From assembly GCF_002944315.1 (NCBI RefSeq), contig NZ_CP024314.1, positions 1,612,001 to 1,676,000 on the forward strand: a DNA stretch of 64,000 nucleotides, written 5' to 3'. Both the position numbers and the translations under genes were made by a program. Shown in pieces: positions 2 to 16,551 of this stretch (positions are counted from its first letter, which is position 1; the number at the start of each line of letters is the position of its first letter). The notes under the pieces are model-generated. The model saw only the letters and a list, made by a program, of their open reading frames with translations. It made no database searches and was not told where the DNA came from. The stretch comes from Rhizobium sp. NXC24 (GTDB lineage: Bacteria > Pseudomonadota > Alphaproteobacteria > Rhizobiales > Rhizobiaceae).

Positions 2-955
2 GCGGAGATCGTCGCAATCTGCGATCGCGATCCAGAGCGATTGAAAATTGTCGGCGAACAGTTTGGCATCGAGCGCCGGTACAGCGATGCGGCGGCTCTC
101 TTTACCGACGGCGGCTTCGATTTCGTCGATATCGCGACGACCGTGCAAAGCCACCGTGCCCTGGTGGAAATGGCAGCGGCCCATAAAGTCCCCGCCATCT
201 GCCAAAAGCCGTTTGCCAAGACATTGAGCGACGCCAAAGCCGTGGTCAAGGCTTGCGCGGACGCCGCCATCCCCCTGATGGTTCACGAGAATTTCCGTTG
301 GCAGACACCGATACAGGCGGTGCACACCGTCCTTCAATCAGGCGTGATTGGCGAGCCGTTCTGGGGCCGTTTTTCCTTCCGCTCCGGTTACGACGTCTTC
401 TCAGGCCAACCCTACCTTGCCGAAGGCGAGCGCTTCATCATCGAGGATCTCGGCATCCACACGCTCGATATTGCGCGCTTCATCCTTGGCGACGTCGCGA
501 CGCTCACCGCGCGCACCAAACGGGTCAATCCGAAAATCAAGGGCGAGGACGTCGCGACGATCATGCTCGACCATCAGAATGGCGCGACATCAATCGTCGA
601 CGTGAGCTATGCGACCAAGCTTGGTGTGGAGCCCTTTCCCGAGACGCTGATCGAGATTGACGGAACGCTGGGAACGATCCGGCTCTCGCAGGGATATCGC
701 CTCGAGGTCAATAGCCCCGAAGGCACGACAGTGTCGGATGCCTCACCGCAGCTTCTCTCCTGGGCCTCGCGCCCTTGGCACAACATCCAGGAGAGTGTCC
801 TCGCCATCCAGCAGCACTGGACCGACCGCCTTGCCGATGGCAGCGAGACCTCCACGTCCGGTGCGGACAATCTCAAGACCTTCGCTCTTGTCGAGGCCGC
901 CTATGAGAGTGCCGCCAACGGGTGCCCGGTCGATATCGGAGCGATGCTGCGATGA
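2..955 (+). CDS. apsD: Gfo/Idh/MocA oxidoreductase, probable D-apiose dehydrogenase (5' partial)
   Basis: The reading frame is open from base 2 (AEIVAICDRDPERLK...), so the start and part of the Rossmann nucleotide-binding end lie outside the window; 317 residues are visible. The segment VAICDRDPERL followed by a variable loop and the later CQKPFAKTL (the EKP-like motif of the family) identify a Gfo/Idh/MocA NAD(P)-dependent sugar dehydrogenase. GIHTLDIARFILGD fits the family's C-terminal substrate domain. The stop overlaps the next start as ATGA. The family alone does not give the substrate. The neighbours (ApnL-like lactonase, DhaK/DhaL, apiosidase-like hydrolase, sugar ABC importer) suggest D-apiose dehydrogenase, which oxidises D-apiose to apionolactone in known rhizobial pathways. 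Family assignment is firm; the apiose role is inference. Confidence 0.75.
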   Translation, partial: AEIVAICDRDPERLKIVGEQFGIERRYSDAAALFTDGGFDFVDIATTVQSHRALVEMAAAHKVPAICQKPFAKTLSDAKAVVKACADAAIPLMVHENFRWQTPIQAVHTVLQSGVIGEPFWGRFSFRSGYDVFSGQPYLAEGERFIIEDLGIHTLDIARFILGDVATLTARTKRVNPKIKGEDVATIMLDHQNGATSIVDVSYATKLGVEPFPETLIEIDGTLGTIRLSQGYRLEVNSPEGTTVSDASPQLLSWASRPWHNIQESVLAIQQHWTDRLADGSETSTSGADNLKTFALVEAAYESAANGCPVDIGAMLR

Positions 956-2835
956 CGGCCAATATCGATCCGTTTCAGCTCTACGGCACGCACGAGACCG
1001 AAACACCGCCGGTGCGGCTGACCGCCGGCAAGCTCGCCGTTGACTTCAAGGACGGCAATCTGCGAACCATCCGCTACGACGGCGCCGAAGTCTTGCGGGC
1101 CGTCTCCTATCTGGTTCGCGATCGCGATTGGGGCACGTATGCGCCTGTTATTGACGAGCTGCGGATCAATCAGCTCCAAGACGGCTTTTCCATCAGCTAT
1201 GTCGCGCGCTGTGCGGGGCCCGAGAATAGCTCGCTTGCAATCGGCGTTCACATAACGGCCGAGGCCGGTGAAGCGCTGATCTTCGAGGCGGAAGCGCTGA
1301 CGACCACCGGTTTTGAGACGAACCGCTGCGGCTTCTGCATCCTGCATCCGATCGTCGGCGTTGCCGGCAGGCCGGTTTCGGTCGAGCATATCGATGGCAG
1401 CCGCGAGGACACGCATCTACCCGACCTCATCGAACCCTGGCAGCCCTTCAAGGATATGCGGGCGATTACGCATGGCGTGACGTCAAACGTGACGGCGGAG
1501 TGCCGCATGGAAGGCGACACTTTCGAAATGGAGGACCAGCGCAATTGGTCCGATGCCTCCTACAAGACCTATGTTCGCCCGCTTGCCCTGCCTTGGCCCT
1601 ATCGCATCCCACCCGGTGAGTCCATGCGGCAACGGATCGTTCTCACCATAGGCGATATGCGACGTTCGCCCACCGCGTCTTCCACGCTTGCTGCGAATCC
1701 GCCCCCGGTCAAACTGAGGCTCGGAGAGAAATCCGGCACGATGCCGGCAATCGGGCTCATCATTACGCCGGACGAAGCGAAGGCAACGCTCGCGGCGCGT
1801 AATCGGCTGGCCGAAGTCGCGCCACAGGAATTATTGTTCCACTTCGACCCCGACGCCGGCCATGGCGCTGACGCCTTCAATTCCTTCGCGGCCATCGCGG
1901 CGCTTCACGCCGGCCGATCGACGTTGGAAATCGCATTGCCGTGCCGCCAGGCTCCGCTTGTCGAAGCACAACAAATATCGAGCTGGATGCAAGATGCCGG
2001 TTTCAAGCCGGACGCAATCGTCATATCGCCTTCGGTCGACCGGCAATCAACGCCACCGGGTAGCAAATGGCCCGAGTGTCCGCCGCTTGAAGAGGTTTAT
2101 GCCGCCGCTCATGCAGCCTTTCCAGGCGTGCGGCTTGGCGGCGGCATGCTCAGCTATTTCACCGAACTCAACCGCAAGCGCGTTCCTTCCGGATCGCTCG
2201 ACTTCATCACCCATTGCACCAACCCGATCGTACATGCGGCTGACGATCTCAGTGTGATGCAGACGCTGGAAGCACTGCCGTTTATCACGCGCTCGGTCCG
2301 CGCCATATACGGCGACAAGCCCTATCGCATAGGCCCCTCCACCATCCCGATGCGCCAGAACCCCTATGGCAGCCGGACGATGAATAATCCCGCCGGCCGC
2401 CGCATTCCGATGGCAAACAGGGATCCCCGGCACAATGGCCGTTTCGCCGAAGCCTTCGCGCTTGGCTATGCGGCTACCGTGCTCGACGCCGGATTGGAAT
2501 GCCTGACGCTTTCAGCATTGGCTGGGCCGTCAGGGTTGATCGCCGGAGGGGGTGAACCATCGCCGGCCGGCGGCAGGCGACCGATCTTCAATACGATCGC
2601 GACGCTCGCCCGCCTCGCCGGCAGCCAATGGCGGGAATGTGTCTCCTCAGATCCGACTGCCGTCCTTTCTTTTGTTGCTGCGCCGGCTAACGAGGCACCG
2701 CAATTGCTACTGGTGAACATTACGGCCGCGGCCCGGCAGGTGGAACTTGGATGCCTGCGCCCGGCCGAGAAACTAAAAAGCGGAAGCCTCACGCTCGCGC
2801 CTTTTGCCGTTGGTTCGATCACGCTGATGGATTGA
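952..2835 (+). CDS. apnL: Probable D-apionate lactonase (ApnL-like)
   Basis: This 627-residue protein starts at the ATG that overlaps the previous stop (ATGA). Residues 1 to about 240 look beta-rich; the middle (about 260-520) has the alternating pattern of a TIM barrel; a small beta domain closes the protein. No signal peptide is visible, so it should act in the cytoplasm. Its length, its position directly after a Gfo/Idh/MocA dehydrogenase and its company match the lactonase ApnL of D-apiose pathways, which opens apionolactone to D-apionate. I recognise it by this context and overall look, not by a catalytic motif, so another glycosidase-like hydrolase is possible. It is certainly a real gene: it has a long frame, tight coupling and consistent codon use. 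Confidence 0.6.
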   Translation: MTANIDPFQLYGTHETETPPVRLTAGKLAVDFKDGNLRTIRYDGAEVLRAVSYLVRDRDWGTYAPVIDELRINQLQDGFSISYVARCAGPENSSLAIGVHITAEAGEALIFEAEALTTTGFETNRCGFCILHPIVGVAGRPVSVEHIDGSREDTHLPDLIEPWQPFKDMRAITHGVTSNVTAECRMEGDTFEMEDQRNWSDASYKTYVRPLALPWPYRIPPGESMRQRIVLTIGDMRRSPTASSTLAANPPPVKLRLGEKSGTMPAIGLIITPDEAKATLAARNRLAEVAPQELLFHFDPDAGHGADAFNSFAAIAALHAGRSTLEIALPCRQAPLVEAQQISSWMQDAGFKPDAIVISPSVDRQSTPPGSKWPECPPLEEVYAAAHAAFPGVRLGGGMLSYFTELNRKRVPSGSLDFITHCTNPIVHAADDLSVMQTLEALPFITRSVRAIYGDKPYRIGPSTIPMRQNPYGSRTMNNPAGRRIPMANRDPRHNGRFAEAFALGYAATVLDAGLECLTLSALAGPSGLIAGGGEPSPAGGRRPIFNTIATLARLAGSQWRECVSSDPTAVLSFVAAPANEAPQLLLVNITAAARQVELGCLRPAEKLKSGSLTLAPFAVGSITLMD

Positions 2836-2893
2836 CCTGACACCCGAGAAGCGCAACTTAGTCTTCCGAAGCGAGATGACCGGGAGGACTGAC

Positions 2894-3913
2894 GTGAAGA
2901 CAAAGAAGCTTATCAATGACGGCGCAGCCGCCGTGGACGAGATGCTGGCAGGCATTCTGGCGGCTCATCCCCGCCACGTGCGCGCCCTCGAAGGATCGCC
3001 GCGGTCACTCGTCGCAATCCAGGGGCCGCGACCCGGCAAGGTCGGCATGGTCGTCGGCGGCGGCTCGGGGCACGAGCCGACCTTCCTGGGTTATGTCGGC
3101 AAAGGGCTTGCCGATGCTGCAGCAATCGGAAATGTCTTTGCCTCTCCGCCACCGGATCCGATCATCGAATGCGCCAAGGCGGTCAATGGCGGCGCCGGCG
3201 TCCTGTTCTTATATGGTAATTATGCCGGCGATGTCATGAATTTCGATATGGCGGCCGAAATGCTCGCCATGGATGACATCGAGGTCCGCACCGTGCTGAC
3301 GACGGACGACGTCGCCTCCGCTCCCGTCGACCAACGGGACCGCCGGCGCGGCGTCGCCGGCAATGTTTTTGTCTTCAAGGCCGCCGGCGCTGCCTGCGAT
3401 CTGATGTACAGCCTGGACGAAGTGGAGCGGATCGCGCGATGGGCGAACGACCGCACCTTCACGATCGGCGTTGCGCTATCGCCCTGCTCGCTGCCTCAGA
3501 CGCTCAAGCCGAATTTTCAGCTTGGCGAGGATGAGATGGAAATCGGCATGGGCATTCATGGCGAGCCGGGCGTTGCCCGCGGTCCGCTCAAGCCGGCCGA
3601 TCAGGTGACCGCCGAACTGCTCGATAAAATCCTCGGTGAGATGAAGCCCGTACGGGGCGACCGGGTGGCCGTGCTTGTCAACTCGCTCGGCTCGACGCCG
3701 CTGATGGAACTCTACATCATGATGCGGAAGGTCAAGATGACGCTCGATGCTGCTGGCATAGAGATCCACTTGTCGCTGGTTGGGAACTACTGCACGTCGC
3801 TGGAGATGGCCGGTGCCTCGATCACGTTGATGCATTTGGACGATGAACTGCAACGACTGATCGATCATCCCTGTGATTGTGCGATGTTCCGTTCTGGTGA
3901 AGTGCTCCGATGA
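2894..3913 (+). CDS. dhaK: Dihydroxyacetone/erythrulose kinase, DhaK subunit
   Basis: A GTG start at 2894 is chosen because GGGAGG lies 6 bases upstream, and the protein then begins VKTKKLINDG like other DhaK proteins; an in-frame ATG 18 bases earlier has no ribosome site. The 339 residues cover a full DhaK (substrate-binding) subunit: GGGSGHEPT near the N-terminus, and MGIHGEPG with His222 as the expected covalent substrate-binding histidine. It pairs with DhaL, whose start overlaps its stop (ATGA). The family phosphorylates dihydroxyacetone or four-carbon ketoses. In an apiose operon the likely substrate is L-erythrulose, formed when 3-oxo-isoapionate is decarboxylated. That decarboxylase is not in the window, so the substrate is inference. 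No PTS-type DhaM is nearby, which fits an ATP-dependent enzyme. Confidence 0.88.
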   Translation: MKTKKLINDGAAAVDEMLAGILAAHPRHVRALEGSPRSLVAIQGPRPGKVGMVVGGGSGHEPTFLGYVGKGLADAAAIGNVFASPPPDPIIECAKAVNGGAGVLFLYGNYAGDVMNFDMAAEMLAMDDIEVRTVLTTDDVASAPVDQRDRRRGVAGNVFVFKAAGAACDLMYSLDEVERIARWANDRTFTIGVALSPCSLPQTLKPNFQLGEDEMEIGMGIHGEPGVARGPLKPADQVTAELLDKILGEMKPVRGDRVAVLVNSLGSTPLMELYIMMRKVKMTLDAAGIEIHLSLVGNYCTSLEMAGASITLMHLDDELQRLIDHPCDCAMFRSGEVLR

Positions 3914-4554
3914 CCAAGACAATCACCGTTGACGATCTCAAATCCCTTCTGAACCTCATCGCGGAAGCGATGACCCGCGAAAAAGACCGTTTATGCGAGC
4001 TCGACGGCGTCATCGGCGATGCCGATCACGGTATAGCCATGGAGCTCGGTTTTTCGGGGGCCGCGAAGGCCGTTGTGCCACTGGATTCGGCAACGGCCGA
4101 TCCGACACTCGTCTTCAATACAGCGGCAAAGGCTTTCCTGAACGCCGTCGGCGCTTCATCCGGCCCGCTCTATGCCACCGCCTTGATGCGTGCGGGCGCC
4201 GCGGTAAAGGGCAAGCCGTCGCTGACGGATGACGACATGGTGGACGCCTTCGTTGCGCTTGCCAAAGGGATCCAGGACCGCGGCAAGGCGGAGGTCGGGG
4301 AGAAGACCATGGTCGACGCCTGGGCGCCCGCCGCCACCGCCTGCCGAGCGGCGCGCGACAAGGGGCTGTCGCTGGCGGATTGTCTCTCGGAAGCTCTGAT
4401 CGCCGCCGAAGCCGGGACGGAAGCAACGAAGCATATGGTGGCCACAAAGGGGCGTTCTTCCAGGCTTGGCGAGCGCGCCTTGGGCCATATCGATCCGGGA
4501 GCAGCCTCGGCAACGGTCGTCATCTCTTGCTTCAAAGGGTTCTTCCTACCTTAA
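3910..4554 (+). CDS. dhaL: Dihydroxyacetone/erythrulose kinase, DhaL subunit
   Basis: A 214-residue DhaL, the nucleotide-binding subunit of the kinase. IGDADHG at residues 35-41 carries the magnesium-binding acidic residues of the family (D32, D37, D39 region), and GRSSRLGERALGHIDPGA near the C-terminus is the usual DhaL signature. The start codon overlaps the dhaK stop, so the two subunits are translationally coupled. Together they should phosphorylate a short-chain ketose with ATP in the cytoplasm. The length matches the roughly 210 residues of stand-alone DhaL proteins. Confidence 0.88.
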   Translation: MTKTITVDDLKSLLNLIAEAMTREKDRLCELDGVIGDADHGIAMELGFSGAAKAVVPLDSATADPTLVFNTAAKAFLNAVGASSGPLYATALMRAGAAVKGKPSLTDDDMVDAFVALAKGIQDRGKAEVGEKTMVDAWAPAATACRAARDKGLSLADCLSEALIAAEAGTEATKHMVATKGRSSRLGERALGHIDPGAASATVVISCFKGFFLP

Positions 4555-4556
4555 TG

Positions 4557-4572
4557 ATGATGACCTCATCAT
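4557..4572. promoter_or_regulatory. Inverted repeat upstream of the sugar-binding protein gene
   Basis: Just after the dhaL stop lies ATGATGA-CC-TCATCAT, a perfect 7-base inverted repeat with a 2-base centre. TTGACA follows at 4578. It sits 67 bases before the binding-protein start, in the only real gap of the operon. It could be an operator or part of an internal promoter, or an mRNA hairpin setting the differential level of the binding protein. No good -10 is visible. Confidence 0.35.
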
Positions 4573-4638
4573 ACCAGTTGACATGTGCCTGTTGATTTGC
4601 CAAAACCGCCCTCAGCATTGTTCAGAGGAGGACGGGAA

Positions 4639-5892
4639 ATGCGCATCAACTCCAAATATGCAAAACGATTTGGCGCGATGGCGATTGCTGCAGCAACCTT
4701 TGCGGCGACGAGTGTCCAGGCGCAGGACCTGACACTATGGACGCTCAATTTCGACAACGGCGCGGCAAACGGTGCCCTCAAGAAGGTGGCGGCGGATTTC
4801 GAGGCCGCCAATCCCGGCACCCATATCGAAATCGTCCAACGCGGCGTCGATGAACACAAGACCGCGCTTCGCGTGGCAGCAGGCTCCAGCAAGGGACCCG
4901 ACATCTATTTTAGCTGGGCCGGGCTTGGTCTCGGCGGCGAATATGTGAAAGCCGGCCTCTCGCTGCCGCTCGACAAGTACTATACCCAGTACAAGTGGAA
5001 CGACGAGTTGCTACCGTCCGCCGCCGCCTTTGCCGATCTTTATCCGGGTGGCAAGCATGGCGTGCCCTTCACCTTCAAGGGCGAAGCGATCTATTACAAC
5101 AAGAAGCTCTTCCAGAAGGCCGGCATCGCCGAGGAGCCGAAGACCTATGAGGAACTGCTGGCGGCGGCCGACAAGCTCAAGGCGGCTGGAATTCCGGCCT
5201 TCACCTTCGGCGGCTCGGTCAACTGGCACGTCATGCGTCTGATGGACGTGCTGCTCGAAACCAAATGCGGCGCCGACAAGCACGACGCGCTGATGGCCAT
5301 GAAGGCCGACTGGACCAAAGAACCCTGCGCCACCGATGCCTTCACCGAATTTGCCAAGTGGACCAAGGACTACACGCTGAAACCCTTCATGGGCATCAGC
5401 AACCAGCAGTCCTACACACTGTTCGTCGCCGGCCGTGCCGCGATGATGCTCGAAGGCGACTGGCTGGTCAGCCAGTTGAGCGGCAGCAAGGTCAACCTCG
5501 ACGATTACGGCGTCGTGCCGTTCCCGACGAACACCAACCGCCTCTATGGCTTTGCCGAATACAATTACATCAGCACCAAGAGTAAGGATCCGGATCTCGC
5601 CGCCAAGTTCCTCGACTATTTCCTGTCGACCAAAGTACAGCAGGATCTCGTCGGGCAGATCAGCTCGATCTCGGTCAACAAGAATATCCAGTACACCAAC
5701 CAGAAGCCGCTCGAGGCGAAATGGCTGGATATCTTCAAGACCTACAGCAAGGTCTACATGAATGGCGACCAGGCATTCCCGCTTGATGTCACCACCGAAT
5801 ACTTCCGGGTGATCAACGACGTCGCTGCCGGCAATATCCAGCCGGCCGATGCCGCCAAACAGTTGCAGACCTTCATCGCGGGTCGCACGTAA
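4639..5892 (+). CDS. ABC sugar transporter, periplasmic binding protein (family 1)
   Basis: The ATG at 4639 is chosen over an upstream in-frame ATG because GAGGAGG precedes it and it gives a clean signal peptide: MRINSKYAKR, a hydrophobic core, then SVQA with cleavage after residue 28. The mature part (LTLWTLNFDNG..., FEAANPGTHIEIVQRG) is a family-1 extracellular solute-binding protein of the kind that takes oligosaccharides and glycosides, 417 residues in all. It delivers substrate to the two permeases that follow. Known D-apiose binding proteins belong to other families, so a family-1 protein here hints that larger apiose-containing glycosides are imported. The ligand is inference. Confidence 0.85.
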   Translation: MRINSKYAKRFGAMAIAAATFAATSVQAQDLTLWTLNFDNGAANGALKKVAADFEAANPGTHIEIVQRGVDEHKTALRVAAGSSKGPDIYFSWAGLGLGGEYVKAGLSLPLDKYYTQYKWNDELLPSAAAFADLYPGGKHGVPFTFKGEAIYYNKKLFQKAGIAEEPKTYEELLAAADKLKAAGIPAFTFGGSVNWHVMRLMDVLLETKCGADKHDALMAMKADWTKEPCATDAFTEFAKWTKDYTLKPFMGISNQQSYTLFVAGRAAMMLEGDWLVSQLSGSKVNLDDYGVVPFPTNTNRLYGFAEYNYISTKSKDPDLAAKFLDYFLSTKVQQDLVGQISSISVNKNIQYTNQKPLEAKWLDIFKTYSKVYMNGDQAFPLDVTTEYFRVINDVAAGNIQPADAAKQLQTFIAGRT

Positions 5893-5987
5893 TCCCTCGA
5901 GGGAGGCCGCCAGTCCGAATGCCAATCGCAGCGGGCGGCTTCCCTCACTCTATGCCCACGCGTCAGTTGCCGCCGGGAGCAATCAGA

Positions 5988-6887
5988 ATGTTATTCCGCA
6001 ATCGAACACATGACCCTCGCGTTCAGGCAGCGATCCTGCTCGCCCCGGCCATGCTGATCTACGCGATTTTCGCGCTTTATCCGATGCTGAACGTGGTGGT
6101 GCTGAGCTTTCAGAAATGGAATGGCCTCGATCCCCAACGTCCATTCGTCGGCCTGGCCAACTATCAATATATCTTCACGCAGGATCCCGTTTTCTGGGTG
6201 GCCTTCCGCAACACGGTGATCTGGACGATTATGTGCGTGATTTTCCCGCCCATGATCGGCCTGCTGCTGGCGCTGAGCCTCAATCAGAAGCTTTTCGCCC
6301 GCAATACCTTCCGCGCCATCTTCTATCTGCCGGTCATTATCGCCCCGATCGCGGTCGCGACCATGTGGAAGTGGATGTACGATCCCTTCTTCGGCCTTTT
6401 CACCGAGATTCTGACGTCCATGGGGCTGCAGGACTGGATTCAGGACTGGCTCGGCAATAAGGACATCGCGCTCTATTCGGTCTTCGTCGCCTACCTCTGG
6501 CAATCCGTCGGCTTCTCCATGGTTCTGTTTCTCGCAGGCCTGCAAAATGTTTCGCAAACGCTAGTCGAGGCCGCACGCATCGATGGCGCCGGGCGCTGGA
6601 ACATCTTCCGATACGTCACCCTCCCCGCGCTGCGCACCACGCTGACAATCGTTCTGGTGTTATCGGTCATCTCGTCGCTGAAGGCCTTTGACATTGTCTA
6701 CGGCCTGACGGGCGGCGGGCCGGCGCAATCCACGCAGATGCTGGCGCTCTGGGCCTTCACGCAAGCCATGCAAATCTTTGATTTCGGCCGCGGTGCTGCG
6801 ATCTCCGTTGTCCTGCTGCTCATCACCATCGCCATCGTCATTCCCTACCTTCGATGGACGCAGAAGCATGAGGAGGCCGAACAATGA
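5988..6887 (+). CDS. ABC sugar transporter permease (MalF/UgpA type)
   Basis: An inner-membrane permease of 299 residues if the ATG at 5988 is used. It has GGGAG nine bases upstream and the protein then starts MLFRNRTHDPRVQ before the first membrane span; in-frame ATGs at 5919 and 5952 are possible. About six membrane segments are seen. The EAA loop that contacts the ATPase is VEAARIDGAGRWNIFRYVTLPAL in the C-terminal half. It overlaps the next permease start (ATGA) and forms the heterodimeric channel with it. Confidence 0.85.
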   Translation: MLFRNRTHDPRVQAAILLAPAMLIYAIFALYPMLNVVVLSFQKWNGLDPQRPFVGLANYQYIFTQDPVFWVAFRNTVIWTIMCVIFPPMIGLLLALSLNQKLFARNTFRAIFYLPVIIAPIAVATMWKWMYDPFFGLFTEILTSMGLQDWIQDWLGNKDIALYSVFVAYLWQSVGFSMVLFLAGLQNVSQTLVEAARIDGAGRWNIFRYVTLPALRTTLTIVLVLSVISSLKAFDIVYGLTGGGPAQSTQMLALWAFTQAMQIFDFGRGAAISVVLLLITIAIVIPYLRWTQKHEEAEQ

Positions 6888-7771
6888 CGGCAGCATCGGC
6901 ATCATCCATGTCGGATGGCTTCGAGACCATCATTCCGGCAAAGCGCAAGCGGGATCCAGTCCTGATCGGCTTATGGATCGCGCTGCTCCTCGTCGCCGCG
7001 ATCTGGCTTGCGCCTTTCGTCTTCATTGTCTTCACGTCGCTCAAAACGCAGGCTGATGTGACGACGACGGGCGCCTTTGTGCCGCCCCTCAATCCGGCTT
7101 TCGAGAATTATTCGAGCGCCTGGGGTCGCGGCAATTTTGCCAACGCCTTCCTGAACAGCACCATCATTACCGTCATCAAAGTGCCGCTCGGGCTTATCCT
7201 TTCAGCGATGGCGGCCTATGCGCTCGCCAAGATCCGGCTGAGGTTCAGCAAGATACTGCTGCTTCTCGTCGTCTTCGGCACGATGATCCCCTTCCAGGTC
7301 ATGCTGGCGCCGCTCTTCACACTGGTCAATTCACTGGGCCTCATCGATACCTATCCCGGCGTGATCCTGCCCTACATCGCCTTCGGCGTTCCCTATCAGG
7401 TCTTCATCCTGCACGGCTTCTTCAAAGGCATTCCAAAGGAGCTGTCCGAAGCCGCTCTGATCGATGGTGCAAGCCATTTCACCATCTTCCGCCGGATATT
7501 CCTGCCGGTTTGCCTGCCGGTACTCGCCGCGCTGCTCATCCTTGATTTCGTTTCGACCTGGAACGAATTCGCCATGGCGCTTGTGCTCCTGCAGGATCAG
7601 CACATGTGGACGCTGCCGCTCGGGCTCATGTCCTTCCAGGGACAGTTTTCAAACGACTACGGCCAGCTCAATGCCGCGATCGTCATGACCGTGCTGCCGG
7701 CAACGCTCGTCTACCTCATCTTTCAGCGATATTTCGTCTCCGGCCTCACCTCCGGCGCCGTCAAGGGCTGA
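6884..7771 (+). CDS. ABC sugar transporter permease (MalG/UgpE type)
   Basis: Second channel subunit, 295 residues, with a short cytoplasmic N-terminus, then a membrane span at about residues 25-47 (LIGLWIALLLVAAIWLAPFV). The EAA loop is SEAALIDGASHFTIFRRIFLPV. The end GLTSGAVKG is typical of this permease class. It is translationally coupled to the preceding permease by ATGA overlap and lies 38 bases before the hydrolase gene. Confidence 0.87.
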   Translation: MTAASASSMSDGFETIIPAKRKRDPVLIGLWIALLLVAAIWLAPFVFIVFTSLKTQADVTTTGAFVPPLNPAFENYSSAWGRGNFANAFLNSTIITVIKVPLGLILSAMAAYALAKIRLRFSKILLLLVVFGTMIPFQVMLAPLFTLVNSLGLIDTYPGVILPYIAFGVPYQVFILHGFFKGIPKELSEAALIDGASHFTIFRRIFLPVCLPVLAALLILDFVSTWNEFAMALVLLQDQHMWTLPLGLMSFQGQFSNDYGQLNAAIVMTVLPATLVYLIFQRYFVSGLTSGAVKG

Positions 7772-7809
7772 TCAATCACCTAATCGGCAAGTCTTTCGAG
7801 GAGAATATC

Positions 7810-9324
7810 ATGTCCAGTGCAACCGTCGAAAAATGGGGCGTCTTCGAGGCCGCTTTCAACGGTCCTTCGGGCGGCAATCCCTATCTCGACGCAGCATTCG
7901 ATGCCGTGTTCAGCCAGAACAGCCGCGAAATCCGCGTGCCCGGTTTCTATGACGGCGACGGCGTCTATCGCCTCCGCTTCATGCCCGACAATGAAGGTGA
8001 ATGGTCCTTCAGGACGCGTTCGAAGACCCCGGAACTCGACGGCAAGACCGGCTCGCTGACCGCCACCAAACCCTCGCAGGGCAATCACGGCCCCGTGCGC
8101 GTGCGCAACAAGTTTCATTTCGCCTATGCCGACGGCAAGCCGTTCCTTTCGTTCGGGACGACCTGCTATGCCTGGACACATCAGCCGCTGGAGATGCAGG
8201 CGCAGACACTCGATACCCTGAAGAAGGCGCGCTTCAACAAGATCCGCATGGGCGTGTTTCCAAAGGACTATCCCTATAATGTCAACGAACCTCTCCATCC
8301 CTGCTTCGAAAAGGCTGCCGATGGCAAAGAGGATTTCGATCGGCCCAACCCGGTCGCCTTCCGGCATTTTGAAAAGCAGGTGGCGGCACTTTGCGAACTC
8401 GGCATCGAGGCCGACATCATCATGTTTCACCCCTACGATCGCTGGGGTTATGCCGACATGTCGGCCGAACAGGATTTCCGCTATGTCGCCTATCTCGCGG
8501 CGCGGCTTGCCGCCTATCGGAACGTCTGGTGGGCGCTCGCCAACGAATATGACTTCCTTCTCGACACCAAGCCGATGGCGCAGTGGGATCGTTATTTCCA
8601 TATTCTCGAAGAGAACGACCCCTACGGCCATCTGAAGTCCATCCATAATGGCGAACCGACGATGAACTTCGATCATCGCAAGCCCTGGGTGACCCACACC
8701 TGCATCCAGAACTGGGATGTGAAGCGCACGCAGGAATGGCGCGACGCCTACGGCAAGCCGGTCGTCAATGACGAGCCTGAATATGAAGGCAACATCATCC
8801 AATCCTGGGGCAATCTGACGCCGCAGGAACTGGTGCATCGTTTCTGGATCACGGTGACGCGCGGCGGCTATGCCGGCCACGGCGAAACCTACTCCCATCC
8901 GCAAGACCTCATCTGGTGGGCGAAAGGCGGGGAACTGCATGGCGAGGCGTGGAAACGCATCGGCTTCCTGCGCGACCTGCTGGAGAAAGATGTGGTCAAG
9001 GGGCTAGAGCCGCTCGGCGCAAGTGGTGAATGGCCCTGGACGCGCGTCTCGGGCGCCCAAGATGGCGATCTCCGTTATATCTATCTTGGCGAGCACCAGC
9101 CCGTCGTCTGGTCCACCGGCCTGCCCAAAGACGGCACTGACTACGATGTCGACATCATCGACACCTGGGAGATGACGATCACCCCCGCAAAGAAAGTGGA
9201 AGCCCCGATCCCGCACCCCACCCGGCACGGCGCAATCGTGCGCGGCGGCAAGGCGGATGCAGCCTTTGGCGTCGAACTGCCGGGTAAGCCGTACCAGGCC
9301 CTTCGCATCCGCAAGAAGAACTGA
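7810..9324 (+). CDS. DUF5060 / apiosidase-like (DUF4038) glycoside hydrolase
   Basis: The start at 7810 is set by AGGAG six bases upstream; the frame is open further upstream but overlaps the permease. The 504 residues contain an N-terminal beta domain (about 7-95; [20 protein letters not shown]), which matches DUF5060, and then an apiosidase-like TIM barrel from about residue 100. Likely catalytic acids are Glu246 in WWALANEYD and Glu322 or Glu324 in [10 protein letters not shown]. No signal peptide is present, so it should act on substrate already imported into the cytoplasm. It sits between the permeases and the ATPase of a sugar importer. Family knowledge suggests release of apiose or a similar branched pentose from a glycoside; the exact bond is unknown. 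Confidence 0.8.
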
Positions 9325-9346
9325 TCGGGTCTACAGGAGGAATTTC

Positions 9347-10411
9347 ATGTCCGGATTGAGCATCAAAAGCGTCAGGAAATCCTACGGAGCGGCGGATATC
9401 ATCCATGGAGTCGATGTCGATATATCGGACGGCGAATTCGTCATTCTCGTCGGGCCATCGGGCTGCGGCAAGTCGACCCTTCTCCGGATGATTGCGGGGC
9501 TGGAGGAAATCACCGGCGGCGAAATCTCGATCGGCGGCCGCGTGGTCAACAACCTGCCGCCGAAGGATCGCGACATCGCGATGGTCTTCCAAAACTATGC
9601 GCTTTATCCGCAGATGACGGTCGCCCAAAACATGGGCTTTGCGCTGGAATTGGCCGGCGCTAAGCGGACGGAGATCGACCGAAAAGTCGGTGAGGCGGCA
9701 CAGATCCTCGGGCTTCAGCCCCTGCTTGGCCGCAAGCCCGCGCAACTTTCCGGCGGCCAGCGCCAGCGCGTCGCCATGGGACGCGCCATCGTACGCGATC
9801 CGAAAGTGTTCCTCTTTGACGAACCGCTATCCAACCTCGATGCCAAATTGCGCGTCAAGATGCGGGCCGAAATCAAGGCGTTGCATCAGCGGCTGAAGAC
9901 GACGATCGTCTATGTCACGCACGACCAGATCGAAGCGATGACGATGGCCGACAAGATCGTCGTGCTGCAGGGCGGGAAAGTCGAGCAGATCGGAACGCCG
10001 CTCGAGCTTTACGATCGGCCAAGGAATGTCTTCGTCGCGGGCTTCCTTGGATCCCCCGCAATGAATTTCCTGGAAGGCAGGTTGACGGGCGGCTCGAATC
10101 CGAGGCTCACACTCCCGAGCGGCACCGCAATCGAGCTCCTGGCGGCTCCGGTCCAGGCCGGCGACCGCGATGTCATCGTCGGCATTCGCCCCGAAGACAT
10201 ATCCTTCGCAACGGATGGCGGAGTGCCGGCCAAGGTCACCGTCGTCGAGCCGACCGGCTCGGAAACCCATGTCGCCCTCGATCTGGAAGGGCGCGAACTG
10301 ACATGGGTCATGCGCGAGCGCGCCGAATTGGTGCCGGACCAGACGGTGAAACTCTCCCTCAAATCGCCGAGCATCCACTTCTTCGACAGGCAGACCCAAC
10401 AGCGCCTGTAG
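9347..10411 (+). CDS. ABC sugar transporter ATP-binding protein (MalK/UgpC type)
   Basis: Start at 9347 with AGGAGG seven bases upstream. The 354-residue ATPase shows Walker [10 protein letters not shown], the signature [14 protein letters not shown], Walker [14 protein letters not shown] and the switch His in [14 protein letters not shown]-terminal regulatory TOBE-like region follows from about residue 240. It energises the importer encoded just upstream and closes the operon. Its stop codon lies inside an inverted repeat that probably ends transcription. Confidence 0.92.
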
Positions 10412-11556: not shown

Positions 11557-12537
11557 ATGTATGTCGGTACGCAGTTTCAGGCTCGCGACGATGATGACTA
11601 CCGGGTCATGGCACAGTTGGGCGTCAGGCACGTCAATGCCGATCCCGATGGCAATCCGCACGACTGGACGCTTGATATTCTCAAGGCCCATCGTGACCAT
11701 ATCGAGAGCTTCGGCCTCATTCTCGATATGATCCAGCTCCCTATGAGCTCGAACGTGATCGAACGGCAATACAGCCCGGACATTTTGACGGCCGGACCGA
11801 ATCGCGATCGCCAAATCGATTCCATCTGCCGCCTGATCGAGAATGCCGCCGCAGTCGGCATTCCCTCGGTCAAATACAATCTCAATATCATCGGGATCCC
11901 TCGTACGGAGATGGAAACCGGCCGCGGCGGATCGAGAAACGAGGCCTTTCGCTGGGAAAGGGCCGATCACGATGCTCCGCCTTCGATCGCCGGCATCCTC
12001 AGCGAGGAGGAGAATTGGGAGCGCATCGATTATTTCCTGTCACGCGTCGTTCCGGTCGCCGAAGCCTGCAAAGTGCGTCTTGCCTGCCATCCGCACGATC
12101 CCTATACGCCGCCGGGCTATCGCGGGGTCACGCGCGTTCTCGGCAGCGTCGAAGGCCTGAAGAAGTTCGTCCAGATGCATGAGAGCCCCTACCATGGGCT
12201 GAATTTCTGCCAGGGCACGGTCGGCGAGATGCTCGACAATCCAGCCGAGGAAATCTTCGACGTCATCCGCTGGTTCGGAGAGCGGGGCAAGCTCTTCAAC
12301 GTCCACTTCCGCAACATCCGCGGCCGCAAGCTCTCCTTCATGGAGACCTTTCCGGAGGAAGGCGACATGGATATGTGGCGCTCGCTGAAAACCTACGCCG
12401 AGGTCGGCTACCAATATATGATCATGCCGGATCATGTGCCGCGCCTCTCCGGGCGCGATCCGGAAAACACCGCCTTTGCTTTCACTTATGGCTACATTGC
12501 CGCCATGCTGCAGGTGCTGGAGAGCGATAAGCGGTAG
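11557..12537 (+). CDS. UxuA-like mannonate dehydratase family protein
   Basis: A 326-residue TIM-barrel protein with AGGAGAGG upstream of the ATG. Motifs ACHPHDPYTPPGYRG, LNFCQGTVGEM, FNVHFRNIRG and MPDHVPRL match the metal-binding core of the UxuA family, which dehydrates D-mannonate to 2-keto-3-deoxygluconate. It is shorter than the roughly 390-residue E. coli UxuA, and no UxuB, UxaC or keto-deoxygluconate kinase is adjacent. It may therefore act on a different aldonate. A HAD phosphatase gene follows 96 bases downstream. Confidence 0.75.
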   Translation: MYVGTQFQARDDDDYRVMAQLGVRHVNADPDGNPHDWTLDILKAHRDHIESFGLILDMIQLPMSSNVIERQYSPDILTAGPNRDRQIDSICRLIENAAAVGIPSVKYNLNIIGIPRTEMETGRGGSRNEAFRWERADHDAPPSIAGILSEEENWERIDYFLSRVVPVAEACKVRLACHPHDPYTPPGYRGVTRVLGSVEGLKKFVQMHESPYHGLNFCQGTVGEMLDNPAEEIFDVIRWFGERGKLFNVHFRNIRGRKLSFMETFPEEGDMDMWRSLKTYAEVGYQYMIMPDHVPRLSGRDPENTAFAFTYGYIAAMLQVLESDKR

Positions 12538-12601
12538 CGGCCATGAGCCTCGTCGCCGTTAGGAGAGCCTTTCTGCACCCTTTTCCCATTGATGCCTTTC
12601 G

Positions 12602-12627
12602 CTCCTCCCCTAGATCTGGGGTAGGAG
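12602..12627 (+). promoter_or_regulatory. Hairpin that buries the Shine-Dalgarno of the HAD gene
   Basis: CTCCTCCCC (12602-12610) pairs with GGGG-T-AGGAG (12618-12627) around the 7-base loop TAGATCT, with only one bulged base. The 3' arm contains AGGAG, the ribosome binding site of the gene starting at 12634. In the mRNA this would mask translation until it is opened by heat, a ligand, a protein or an upstream ribosome. Confidence 0.5.
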
Positions 12628-12633
12628 AGTTCC

Positions 12634-13308
12634 ATGCGCATTGAACATGCCTTTCTATTCGATCTTGACGGCACGTTGGTGGACAGCGTCTATCAGCATG
12701 TGCTGGCGTGGAAAGAAGCCTTGGATGCCGAAGGTATCGAGCTCTCGATATGGCGCATCCATCGAAAAATCGGAATGAGCGGCGGCCTGTTCACCAACCA
12801 ATTGCTTCGTGAAACCGGCATCGAGACAACCGACGAGAAAAATGAGCGGTTGCGGCAACTTCATGCCGATGCCTATCGCCGTCTCGGCACCCAGATACGG
12901 CCTCTTCCCGGCGCAAGCGAGCTTCTCCGCTGGCTTTCGGACGCCGGAATTCGTTTCGCGATCGCCACAAGCGGCCGCATGGAGACGGCAGCGGTCAATA
13001 TTGCCGCATTGGGGATCGACTCGACGGCATTCCCGATCATCACCCGGGACAAGGTCAAATACGCCAAGCCCGACCCGGACCTGTTTATTGCCGCAGCAGA
13101 AGCCCTCGGGGTTGCGATAGAAAATTCTATTGTCGTAGGAGACGCCATCTGGGACATGCTTGCGGCGACGCGTTGCAAGGCGCTCGGGGTCGGGCTGCTG
13201 AGCGGCGGCTATGGCCGCGAAGAACTCAAGGATGCCGGGGCGATCCGCGTCTATGAAGATCCGGCCGACCTTCTCTATCACATCGATGAAGTGGGAGGGC
13301 GGCGCTGA
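12634..13308 (+). CDS. HAD-family phosphatase (beta-phosphoglucomutase-like)
   Basis: A 224-residue HAD hydrolase. Motif I is FDLDGTLVDS at about residues 8-17, with the nucleophile Asp and the acid/base Asp two residues on. Motif II is IATSGR, motif III the Lys in KYAKPDPDLF, and motif IV VVGDAIWDM. A helical cap follows motif I. It probably removes phosphate from a small sugar phosphate. The start has AGGAG six bases upstream, but this site sits in a strong hairpin. The substrate is not evident from the neighbours. Confidence 0.85.
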   Translation: MRIEHAFLFDLDGTLVDSVYQHVLAWKEALDAEGIELSIWRIHRKIGMSGGLFTNQLLRETGIETTDEKNERLRQLHADAYRRLGTQIRPLPGASELLRWLSDAGIRFAIATSGRMETAAVNIAALGIDSTAFPIITRDKVKYAKPDPDLFIAAAEALGVAIENSIVVGDAIWDMLAATRCKALGVGLLSGGYGREELKDAGAIRVYEDPADLLYHIDEVGGRR

Positions 13309-13327
13309 GCGGGAAAACGCCGACGCG

Positions 13328-14350
13328 TCAGTTGCCCGCAGGCATATTGTAGGGCGTGATAATTTCCACCGCAGACAGCACAGCCGGCGCCACGCGCTCT
13401 TTCACCACACCGCTCATGATTGCTCGAAATGCCGAACGTGCATCTGTTCGCAGGTCGTGATGCAACACAAAACCAATCTTGCCTGCGGCAAGGAGTGCGC
13501 GATTGTCGGCATCGAGATCATGCGCGACAAAAATGCGGATGTCCCTCCCGGCCTCCTCGAAGGCGGCAAGCACCGCCCTGTTTCCGCCGCCAATGGAATA
13601 GACCGCATTGATCGTCGCATCCGCCGCGATGGCGCGGGCGGCGAGGATTCCCGTGGCAGCGTCGGCGCCGTGGCCTTCGCTGATTTCGGCAACGCCGATC
13701 TGCGGATAACGCTCGCGAAGGACGCGGCGAAAGCCGATTTCCCGCTCCTCCTCGCCGCGAAAGCGACCGCTCGACAACGTTACAAGCACCCGGGCGGCGG
13801 CCCCAGCGAAGTAATTCCCGACAAGATAGGCCGCCGTCTCGCCGGCGGCACGATTGTCGGCGCCTGCGTAAACCGCGCGCGAAGAATTTGGCAGGTCCGT
13901 CACCAGGGTAACGACGGTGATGCCGGCTTTGGCCGCACGCTCGACCGCAGCCGTAATCTCGGGAATATCGGGAGCTTTCAGCACGATCCCATGGGTACCT
14001 CTGAGCCGGATGCGATCGAGCAGGTGCACCATTTCAAGCGGCTTCATGACTTCCGCAAAATGAAAACGGCAGCGGAAGACCGTCGGCAAAAAGGTCGCAA
14101 CCTCGGCTTCGAAGGCAGCGCGCACGGCATCGGAAAAACGCGCCGGCGTCTCCATCACGATGTCGATTGCCAGCGTCCGCCCGCTCACTGCAACCCCCGC
14201 CTGCTGCTTTTCCAACTCGGCGATCGCCGCCTTCACCCGCATCTCTGACTGCTGGCGCACGCCTGCCCGCCCGTTCAGCACCCGGTCGACGGTCGCAGTG
14301 CTGAGGCCGGCTTGAAAAGCGATGTCCTTGACGAGAAATGGATGTGACAT
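13328..14350 (-). CDS. LacI-family transcriptional regulator
   Basis: 340 residues starting MSHPFLVKDIAFQAGLSTATVDRVLNGRAG, a typical LacI helix-turn-helix and hinge; the frame stays open 36 codons upstream, but that part does not look coding. The rest is a periplasmic-binding-protein-like sugar sensor domain. It is divergent from the PhyH-like oxygenase gene 94 bases away, so it likely controls the oxygenase/SDR pair and itself. A palindrome lies in the shared promoter region. The effector is unknown. Confidence 0.85.
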   Translation of the reverse strand: MSHPFLVKDIAFQAGLSTATVDRVLNGRAGVRQQSEMRVKAAIAELEKQQAGVAVSGRTLAIDIVMETPARFSDAVRAAFEAEVATFLPTVFRCRFHFAEVMKPLEMVHLLDRIRLRGTHGIVLKAPDIPEITAAVERAAKAGITVVTLVTDLPNSSRAVYAGADNRAAGETAAYLVGNYFAGAAARVLVTLSSGRFRGEEEREIGFRRVLRERYPQIGVAEISEGHGADAATGILAARAIAADATINAVYSIGGGNRAVLAAFEEAGRDIRIFVAHDLDADNRALLAAGKIGFVLHHDLRTDARSAFRAIMSGVVKERVAPAVLSAVEIITPYNMPAGN

Positions 14351-14388
14351 GCGGCTCGTTCTGATGGTTTTTTGATGGATTTGTGATC

Positions 14389-14410
14389 TATAACACACCG
14401 GCATGTGCCG
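14389..14410. promoter_or_regulatory. Possible -10 and LacI-type operator
   Basis: TATAAC at 14389-14394 could be a -10 hexamer for the plus-strand oxygenase gene. Five bases on, CGGCA-TG-TGCCG (14399-14410) forms a perfect 5-base inverted repeat. Its place over the likely transcription start, next to a divergent LacI gene, fits repression by that regulator. Confidence 0.4.
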
Positions 14411-14444
14411 TATAGTGCCTCCATCAGGGATGGAGGAACATCTG

Positions 14445-15638
14445 ATGAAAACCGACAATCTTCAGAAGCAGCGCGCCGACCGCGTCTGGCTGACCGAGGA
14501 CGCCTGTGACCTCGACGATTTTCGCACTCTGGTTGAGAAGACCACCTCGCTTTCAGACTATCCGACCGCCGATCACGTCGAGAAAAACGTCCTGATCTAC
14601 GACAGCCGCAAGGTTCTGGCTGACATTGCCGATCCTCAAGGCCGTCGCGCCGTGCTCACTGAAATCTGCGAGGCCTTCGGCGAAGGTCCAGGCGTTGTCG
14701 TCTTCAAGCGCGCTTATGAGGATCTCTCCGTCATCGATCGCGCCAGCACGATTTTCGACGACATCATCAAGGAACAGCATCGCACGGCCACCGGCGGCGG
14801 AGACCACTTCGCCAAGCCCGGCGCCAATGACCGCATCTGGAATTCGCTGGAAAAACATTGCCTCGCCGATCCCGCCAACTTCGCGGAATATTACGGCAAT
14901 GCCATTGTCGCCATCGCCAGCGCAGCTTGGCTCGGACCAAACTACCAGATGACGGCGCAGGTCAATCGCGTCAATCCCGGCGGCGCGGCGCAGTCCGCTC
15001 ACCGCGATTACCACCTCGGTTTCCAGACATCGAAGGTGATCGAGCAGTTTCCGGCCCATGTGCACAGGCTCTCACCTGTTCTGACCTTGCAGGGCGCGGT
15101 TGCCCATTGCGATATGCCGCTCGAAAGCGGACCGACGCTTTTCCTGCCGCACAGCCAGACCTATGTGCCCGGCTATCTCGCGCTGAAGCGCCAGGAGTTC
15201 CGTGACTATTTCGATCGCAACCATGTTCAGCTTCCGCTCGAAAAAGGCGATGTCGTCTTCTTCAACCCTGCCCTCTTCCACGCGGCCGGCAACAACCGCT
15301 CGGCCGATATCAAGCGCGTGGCTAACCTTTTGCAGGTTTCCTCTGCCTTCGGCCGCGCCATGGAAACGGTCAATCGCGAACGCATGAGCGCACGCCTGTT
15401 TCCGGCGCTGAAGGAACTGAAATCAGCAGGCAAGCTCTCCGCGGCGGAAGTGTCGAACGCCATTGCCGCCTGTGCCGAAGGCTATTCCTTCCCAACCAAT
15501 CTCGACCGCGACCCGCCCATCGGCGGCCTCGCGCCAAAGACGCAGGCGCAACTGATGCACGAGGCGCTGGAGGAAAACTGGAGTGACGCGACTTTCAGCA
15601 AGGCGCTTGCCGAACAGGCGGACAAGAAGCTGACCTGA
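14445..15638 (+). CDS. Phytanoyl-CoA dioxygenase (PhyH) family oxygenase
   Basis: A 397-residue Fe(II)/2-oxoglutarate oxygenase, with GGAGGA seven bases before the ATG. His186 and Asp188 in SAHRDYH and His279 in LFHAAGNNRS make a plausible HxD...H iron triad, and the Arg in NNRS lies where 2-oxoglutarate would bind. PhyH-family enzymes in bacteria hydroxylate diverse small molecules, so the name does not imply phytanoyl-CoA. An SDR gene follows after 91 bases, and a LacI regulator is divergent. Together they may modify a plant or sugar-derived compound. Confidence 0.8.
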   Translation: MKTDNLQKQRADRVWLTEDACDLDDFRTLVEKTTSLSDYPTADHVEKNVLIYDSRKVLADIADPQGRRAVLTEICEAFGEGPGVVVFKRAYEDLSVIDRASTIFDDIIKEQHRTATGGGDHFAKPGANDRIWNSLEKHCLADPANFAEYYGNAIVAIASAAWLGPNYQMTAQVNRVNPGGAAQSAHRDYHLGFQTSKVIEQFPAHVHRLSPVLTLQGAVAHCDMPLESGPTLFLPHSQTYVPGYLALKRQEFRDYFDRNHVQLPLEKGDVVFFNPALFHAAGNNRSADIKRVANLLQVSSAFGRAMETVNRERMSARLFPALKELKSAGKLSAAEVSNAIAACAEGYSFPTNLDRDPPIGGLAPKTQAQLMHEALEENWSDATFSKALAEQADKKLT

Positions 15639-15729
15639 CAGGACCGAAGACGCGTCCAACAAGATGAGGCCTCTCGCATCCGCGAGGGCTTTCCGCATAT
15701 CGTAATAGACCATTTCCGGGAGGAACCAC

Positions 15730-16551
15730 ATGAGCACAGACCACAGCCGTCTCGACGGCAAGATCGCTATCGTCACCGGCGGCACACAGGGGCTCGGCGC
15801 CACCATCGCCCGTCTCTTTGCCGATCGCGGCGCCAAGGGCATCGTCATCTGCGGCCGCAACGAGGTGAAGGGCAAGGCCACGGCCGAGGAGATCTCGGCT
15901 GCAACAGGCGCAAAGGTCGTCTACGTGAAAGCCGATCTCGGCAATGTCGACGAGGCACGCAATGTCGTGCATGTCTGCGACCAGACCTTCGGTCGTGTCG
16001 ATGCGCTGGTCAACGCCGCCGCCATCACCGATCGCGGCACCATTCTGGACACCAGTCCCGAGCTTTTCGATGCCATGTTCGCCGTTAATGTCCGGGCGCC
16101 GTTCTTCCTGATGCAGGAAACTGTCAAAGTCATGAGGCGCGAGAAGATCGAAGGCACGATCGTCAATATCGGCTCGATGTCCGCCAAGGCCGGCCAGCCC
16201 TTCATCGTCGCCTATTGCGCCTCTAAGGGCGCGCTGGAAACCTTGACGAAAAACACCGCCTACGCACTGCTGCGCAACCGTATCCGCGTCAACGGCCTCA
16301 ACATCGGCTGGATGGCCTCTGAAGGCGAAGACCGGATCCAGAAGGAATATCACGATGCGCCCGACGACTGGCTGGAAAAGGCAGCGGCGAGCCAGCCCTT
16401 CGGCCGTCTGGTCGACCCACAAGAGGTGGCCCGCGCCTGCGCCTACCTTTCGTCGGCCGAATCCGGTCTCATGACCGGCTCGGTTATTTGTTTCGATCAA
16501 TCGGTCTGGGGCGCTTACGACGGATCGCCGCATCCGGTAGCGGCCCTCTGA
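15730..16551 (+). CDS. Short-chain dehydrogenase/reductase (SDR)
   Basis: A 273-residue classical SDR with GGGAGGA upstream. The cofactor motif is TGGTQGLG near residue 16. The catalytic set includes the Ser in NIGSMSAKAG and Tyr162-x3-Lys166 in YCASKGA. CGRN after the second strand suggests NADP(H) preference, as for many FabG-like enzymes. It follows the PhyH oxygenase in the same direction and probably oxidises or reduces the same compound. The substrate is unknown. Confidence 0.88.
   Translation: MSTDHSRLDGKIAIVTGGTQGLGATIARLFADRGAKGIVICGRNEVKGKATAEEISAATGAKVVYVKADLGNVDEARNVVHVCDQTFGRVDALVNAAAITDRGTILDTSPELFDAMFAVNVRAPFFLMQETVKVMRREKIEGTIVNIGSMSAKAGQPFIVAYCASKGALETLTKNTAYALLRNRIRVNGLNIGWMASEGEDRIQKEYHDAPDDWLEKAAASQPFGRLVDPQEVARACAYLSSAESGLMTGSVICFDQSVWGAYDGSPHPVAAL

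Follow-up and report, generated by a model that had tools for sequence, protein, structure and literature searches.

The window analysed here, a stretch of 64,000 nucleotides from Rhizobium sp. NXC24 (contig NZ_CP024314.1; G000:C4:1612001-1676000; genome 7.3 Mb, 4 contigs), contains at positions 2-10411 the 3' part of a single co-directional run of contiguous genes on the + strand, in the order dehydrogenase, ApnL, DhaK, DhaL, binding protein, two permeases, hydrolase and ATPase (Table 1). The original prediction, made from the letters alone, described a sugar importer that encloses an apiosidase-like hydrolase, preceded by a dehydrogenase, an ApnL-like lactonase and DhaK/DhaL, and this gene list agrees with the Pfam and NCBIfam matches. 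Taken together with the neighbouring DNA and with related genomes, the run is probably a D-apiose catabolic operon of the OiaX branch combined with a portable cassette that would import and cleave apiosides.

Table 1. Genes of the run at the 5' end of the window
Feature	Position in window	Strand	Basis of assignment
Gfo/Idh/MocA dehydrogenase in the ApsD place	2..955 (gene start 79 bases before the window)	+	Pfam GFO_IDH_MocA domains
ApnL, D-apionate lactonase	ATG 952..2835	+	NCBIfam NF049900, 1056 bits (cut-off 750)
DhaK-like kinase subunit	2876..3913	+	Pfam Dak1, 408 bits; under TIGR02363 cut-off
DhaL-like kinase subunit	3910..4554	+	TIGR02365, 185 bits (cut-off 138)
Family-1 (oligosaccharide-type) solute-binding protein	ATG 4639..5892	+	Pfam SBP_bac_1, 117.5 bits; signal-peptide-like N-terminus
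MalF-type permease	5919..6887	+	Pfam BPD_transp_1
MalG-type permease	6884..7771	+	Pfam BPD_transp_1
DUF5060-PF13204-DUF5605 glycoside hydrolase, predicted cytoplasmic	7810..9324	+	PF13204 'Apiosidase', 70.7 bits (cut-off 26.5)
UgpC/MalK-type ATPase	ATG 9347..10411	+	NF008653, 505 bits (cut-off 432)

The probable apiose operon and its two importers

The DNA 5' of the window (L002) carries, in the same direction, genes for OiaX, an OiaK-like kinase, a PGDH_C-domain protein, a Peripla_BP_4 binding protein ("SBP4"), a DUF2291 lipoprotein, an RbsA-like ATPase and an RbsC-like permease, followed by the dehydrogenase; a GntR/FCD regulator gene lies divergently ahead of OiaX. OiaX, a RuBisCO-like decarboxylase, matched NF042437 with 781 bits (cut-off 700), and the OiaK-like kinase, with 467 bits against NF042436, stayed under that model's cut-off of 700. 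The PGDH_C-domain protein occupies the expected place of ApnO. The ApsD and ApnO places are thus filled by Gfo/Idh/MocA and PGDH_C domains, with no specific model over its cut-off, and copies of the dehydrogenase with 60-94% identity adjoin ApnL in other apiose operons. The original prediction had pointed to the upstream sequence as the place for apnO and oiaK homologues; ApnO-like and OiaK-like genes are present there, together with OiaX.

The upstream transporter resembles that of the D-apiose cluster of Escherichia coli SE15 (48% identity for the binding protein, 47% for the ATPase and 55% for the permease), and E. coli strains with this cluster, in which the names aptA, aptB and apsI are used, are described as growing on apiose (PMC13001218). 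RuBisCO-like proteins of A. radiobacter K84 and of a Xanthobacter are described as decarboxylating or transcarboxylating 3-oxo-isoapionate-4-phosphate (PMC6302742, citing Carter et al. 2018). The run shares with the bacterial D-apiose pathways ApnL and OiaX over their cut-offs, ApsD-, ApnO- and OiaK-like genes and a transporter of 47-55% identity; however, it differs from them in an additional oligosaccharide-type importer with a cytoplasmic hydrolase and in the presence of DhaK/DhaL. A role of DhaK/DhaL as an L-erythrulose kinase, which belongs to another apiose branch, was considered and left unused.

From DhaL through the ATPase, the genes are separated by 84 and 26 bases, an overlap of 4 bases, and then 38 and 22 bases. 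Promoter-like sites were about as frequent as in shuffled sequences, and terminator-like sites were fewer than in the shuffles. The annotation of pRL12 in Rhizobium johnstonii 3841 shows the identical gene order and labels the hydrolase only "DUF5060 domain-containing protein", the hydrolase and binding-protein genes being RL_RS34825 and RL_RS34840 there; the literature carrying pRL12 locus tags concerned an unrelated gene only.

The second importer, with a family-1 binding protein, two BPD_transp_1 permeases and a MalK-type ATPase containing a TOBE domain, is of the CUT1 type. CUT1-type importers accompanied by an intracellular glycosidase exist, as in maltose-type operons. The present run has the same composition as those operons, namely a family-1 binding protein, two permeases, a MalK-type ATPase and a cytoplasmic hydrolase feeding a sugar pathway, and differs from them in the sugar, the hydrolase family and the pathway.

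Distribution of the cassette among related bacteria

When species genomes were scanned for the hydrolase, 124 relatives were obtained, and the best 80 of the 124 were retained as named loci with flanks of up to 10 kb; because the loci were collected through the hydrolase, cassettes that have lost it are not visible in this set. The nearest named hydrolases are from Rhizobium, with 98% identity in plasmids of Rhizobium sp. CB3171 and CB3060, and identity is at most 95% among the 80 named loci. All four transporter genes were present with at least 50% identity in 76 of the 80 loci, the exceptions being Devosia L112 and L114, Roseinatronobacter L120, and L130, which is a 3-kb contig. Since so many loci keep the four transporter genes around the hydrolase, the gene neighbourhood is not a matter of chance.

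The hydrolase adjoins an apiose operon in 54 of the 80 loci, 50 of them oxidative (at least two oxidative genes in the flank) and four non-oxidative. Among the latter, L103 and L105 have an isomerase of the xylose-isomerase type and a split transketolase, L131 has an isomerase of the fucose-isomerase type and a split transketolase, and L112 has a split transketolase; in L103 and L131, a kinase resembling the one in the E. coli cluster (45% and 42%, respectively) then follows. A genome-wide check of the remaining 26 loci found the apiose pathway elsewhere in 25. In 17 of the 26, ApnL is encoded elsewhere (837-1052 bits), and in the seven of these regions that were inspected (L146-L152) it lies among other oxidative apiose genes. 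In eight, an AptB-like gene of at least 66% identity is present elsewhere; an isomerase and AptA adjoin it in seven, with transporter or DUF2291 genes in five of those seven, and the eighth genome (G420) has only a contig-end fragment with an adjoining kinase. Neither AptA nor ApnL was found in the last one, the fragmented metagenome-assembled genome L130. DhaK was not seen within the 10-kb flanks of 11 of the 50 oxidative loci, and DhaK/DhaL is therefore a variable part of the operon.

The cassette or its hydrolase stands in five arrangements relative to the apiose genes (ARRANGEMENTS). In Rhizobium (arrangement 1), the cassette is 3' of ApnL or DhaL; in Mesorhizobium L107 and L115 (arrangement 2), it is convergent with the oxidative operon; in L103 and L105 (arrangement 3), it is 3' of the isomerase, AptA, AptB and the kinase; Roseibium L131 (arrangement 4) is organised likewise with the other isomerase type; and in Devosia L112 (arrangement 5), the hydrolases are divergent from AptA/AptB and accompanied by a different importer, which is of the dipeptide type (SBP_bac_5). 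The coupling between cassette and pathway thus arose more than once. Devosia-type loci (L112:8394-11515; L114, L019, L024, L025) have tandem hydrolases, one belonging to the clade of the window hydrolase and the second with about 45-48% identity. In addition, many loci whose cassette lies apart from the apiose genes have a divergent ROK-family regulator gene ahead of the gene for the binding protein (L117:5473-6666 (-), L122, L126, L049, L050 and others); no such regulator was seen at the window cassette.

We also examined 397 genomes of the order, 37 of which encode PF13204 proteins: 27 (8 genera, 8 families) have a member of the window clade, defined by at least 59% identity to the window hydrolase, and 10 have members of other clades only. 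Strict markers, i.e. ApnL over its model cut-off or AptA of at least 68% identity, were found in 22 of the 27 genomes with the clade, ApnL accounting for 6 and AptA for 16. Among the 370 others, 12 have a strict marker, and some copies there may have been missed, as the scans scored at most 6, mostly 3, or at most 5 candidates per genome. The corresponding Fisher odds ratio of 131 (p 5e-23) is descriptive, since the genomes are related. PF13204 and ApnL matches lie within 10 kb of each other in 7 of the 13 genomes with both (3 genera; sub-cut-off ApnL in 3 of the 7), and the hydrolase and AptA do so in 7 of 16 genomes (2 genera). ApnL over the cut-off also occurs without PF13204 (G021, G096, G189, G279, G292 and others), so that the relation is one-way, as is expected if the hydrolase would only feed the pathway. 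An AptA/AptB-like transketolase paralog (L142-L145; AptA 50-52%, with another transporter adjoining) was excluded from the counts.

Three genomes, G159, G345 and G313, have apiose operons that escaped the strict marker; in G313, AptA is at a contig end. The operons of the Cohaesibacter-type genomes G159 and G345 (L154, L156) combine transketolase halves of the E. coli type (62% and 56-57% identity to E. coli SE15) with a transporter and an isomerase of the alphaproteobacterial kind. In G186, an ApnL match of 373 bits has ApsD-, OiaX-, OiaK- and ApnO-like neighbours. After this follow-up, an apiose operon is known for 26 of the 27 genomes with the clade, G080 being uncertain; the strict count remains the fair comparison, because the follow-up covered clade genomes only.

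An unrelated importer and hydrolase that happen to lie behind an apiose operon could account for the adjacency in any one genome. However, adjacency in more than half of the loci, its five arrangements and the unequal distribution of the strict markers bring this explanation close to refutation, and we regard it as hardly tenable. The connection with D-apiose catabolism made in the original prediction is, by comparative genomics, strongly supported for the cassette. The putative import-and-cut genes accompany two chemically different apiose pathways in related bacteria, so that the proposal has a strong genomic basis.

Of the 50 oxidative loci, 7 (L060, L061, L065, L069, L101, L106 and L119, the last from Rhizobium freirei PRF 81) lack the block of SBP4, DUF2291, RbsA and RbsC that otherwise separates ApnO from the dehydrogenase. 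Six of these seven genomes, all Rhizobium, have no SBP4 ortholog, their best match being a paralog of 50-52% identity, which was present in 11 of 11 genomes searched; in L061, an SBP4 ortholog (87%) is on a different contig. No apiose-linked importer other than the cassette was seen in those six genomes, and the 50-52% paralog is a possible substitute. This loss would suit a cassette importer that is simply a second transporter of free apiose, replacing the usual one, with the hydrolase incidental or acting on another substrate. However, the Devosia hydrolase stays beside apiose genes even with an SBP_bac_5 importer, so that the hydrolase is the constant part; the best solved relatives of the window binding protein include XylA, chitin-oligosaccharide and xylo-oligosaccharide binding proteins; and the widespread paralog could serve free apiose. 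A second free-apiose transporter therefore appears very unlikely.

The hydrolase and its relatives

At its longest, the open reading frame for the hydrolase begins at 7606, within the permease gene, and the ATG that follows GAGGAG, at 7810, gives a protein of 504 amino acids without a signal peptide. The peak 12-residue hydropathy in the first 45 residues is 0.69, compared with 1.81 in the binding protein; the prediction of a hydrolase lacking a signal peptide thus holds from the corrected start. None of 79 full-length hydrolases of the related loci has a hydrophobic N-terminus (highest value 1.3), and all 43 binding proteins with long enough predicted frames have one (lowest 1.58). Glu246 and Glu322, the candidate catalytic pair, are invariant among 36 aligned relatives and are positioned following barrel strands.

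The hydrolase contains the PF13204 catalytic domain found in GH140 apiosidases (BT1012, PDB 5msy/3kzs; 8t9w). However, the Asp/Glu pair of BT1012 is not present, Glu replacing Asp at the first catalytic place; an extra DUF5060 domain is present, and DUF5605 replaces the BT1012-type C-terminus. The BT1012-type pair is given as Asp187/Glu284, with Asp at the first place in 82% and Glu in 17.3% of PF13204 (PMC4032388). In a phmmer comparison with solved structures, the hydrolase matched no GH140 structure at E 1, only 4n0r reaching that value or better, while a PF13204 protein from another genome did match 8t9w, 4qfu and 3kzs. By these features, the Glu/Glu pair and the absence of phmmer matches to GH140 structures, the window hydrolase is not a GH140 member. 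In the tree, which has long branches, its clade lies on one side of a branch with 79/89 support and the GH140 structures are on a separate branch. The protein of 4n0r (BVU_0362 of Bacteroides vulgatus, a glycoside hydrolase without assigned activity) clusters with the second hydrolase copy of Devosia, outside the cassette group.

The closest characterised full-length fold is that of the beta-mannanase ManDH5 of Dictyoglomus (9gmj and others), which acts on mannan, has 15-16% identity to the window hydrolase and shows no apiose link here; the fold search did not tell an apiosidase from a mannanase. The hydrolase might accordingly act on a non-apiose glycoside such as a beta-mannoside, its tie to apiose reflecting a shared plant diet. 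We consider this quite unlikely, as an apiose pathway of one of two types is adjacent or elsewhere in the genome for 79 of the 80 relatives, in five arrangements, and the genes of the run include none for mannose or rhamnose catabolism.

The Pfam name "Apiosidase" was dropped as a basis for the pathway link, since PF13204 is broad and members outside the clade often occur without apiose markers. Of 8000 candidates scored for this hydrolase family, 7956 pass E 0.001, and the apiose-linked clade makes up only a part of the family. Among the 10 genomes with only other PF13204 clades, both markers are absent from five (G052, G151, G335, G347, G364), and the remaining five have ApnL matches under the model cut-off; the argument was therefore shifted from the Pfam family to the clade. 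DUF4038/DUF5060 genes of Lactobacillus jensenii are described in a cluster with a rhamnosidase (PMC10711310), and other DUF4038/DUF5060 members may serve other roles.

A different possibility is that an apiose-containing oligosaccharide is imported but that the enzyme removes another sugar, e.g. a rhamnosyl residue, from the apiose, and is not a strict apiosidase. In the side chains of rhamnogalacturonan II (RG-II), a rhamnosyl residue is attached to apiose. This explanation accounts equally well for the pathway link and also for the distance of the hydrolase from GH140. However, no gene for another sugar recurs, the conserved unit consisting of the binding protein, permeases, hydrolase and ATPase only, and we consider it unlikely, though worth keeping in mind.

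Proposed function and significance

Apioside import with intracellular cleavage is the best reading of these observations, from which we infer the ligand, the bond cleaved and the order of reactions. The family-1 binding protein and the MalF/MalG/MalK-type importer would take up a small apiose-containing glycoside or oligosaccharide, and the cytoplasmic clan-A-type hydrolase, with Glu246 and Glu322, would split off D-apiose. The dehydrogenase and ApnL would then convert apiose to apionate, and ApnO, OiaK and OiaX would carry apionate to an erythrulose phosphate; the D-apiose steps so named reportedly originate from Carter et al. 2018. The separate upstream Peripla_BP_4/RbsA/RbsC-type importer would take up free apiose. 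Apioside import and cleavage is favoured because genes or gene candidates for the complete oxidative pathway lie in the same run; because nearly all relatives either adjoin apiose genes or have the pathway elsewhere; because of the marker distribution and the five arrangements; because six Rhizobium genomes keep the pathway and cassette without an SBP4 ortholog; and because the binding protein has an export signal and the hydrolase none, with an invariant glutamate pair.

Other hydrolases also occur beside apiose operons. In genus g79 (L038:14496-16079 (-), L039; architecture also in L043, L044), a protein with DUF5060, Apiosidase and Collagen_bind_2 domains has its own binding protein and permeases, and in L038 and L039 it adjoins ApnL-, ApsD-, OiaX-, OiaK- and ApnO-like genes. 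An ApnL-like gene in G208 (L040) has as its neighbour a gene for a PF13204 protein with matches to GH140 structures. A nucleoside-hydrolase-like protein (PF01156; L038:13512-14414 (-), also L039, L040, L043, L044, L170, L179) lies beside apiose operons of both types. At E 1e-60, it was found in 10 of the 397 genomes (3 genera), all 10 of which have an apiose marker (ApnL matches in five, all sub-cut-off; AptA of at least 68% in five), and it is a candidate second apiose-releasing hydrolase. In the window itself, a UxuA-like dehydratase, a HAD hydrolase, a PhyH-family dioxygenase and a short-chain dehydrogenase are encoded 3' of the cassette (11557-16551, +).

More tentatively, the DUF5060-PF13204-DUF5605 clade may be a new family of cytoplasmic Glu/Glu apiosidases within a portable importer cassette that joins two chemically unrelated pathways and is the sole dedicated apiose supply in some Rhizobium, with the PF01156 protein as a second, unrelated apiose-releasing enzyme; as a whole, we regard this extended proposal as possible and not yet as the probable case. 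In the literature searched, mainly openly readable and covered by titles and the beginnings of abstracts, no paper connects this hydrolase, or an apiosidase, with both an importer and a pathway for apiose in rhizobia.

Plants contain apiose mainly in bound form, as part of RG-II, apiogalacturonan and plant glycosides, and a pathway for free apiose is for this reason left without a supply step. The cassette would offer such a step in root-associated bacteria. A match to the Pfam family "Apiosidase" alone does not imply apiose, as only some clades accompany apiose genes. For a large group of unassigned hydrolases, the cassette gives a testable function, with 4n0r as a solved near relative, and it would show what plant molecules enter these bacteria intact.

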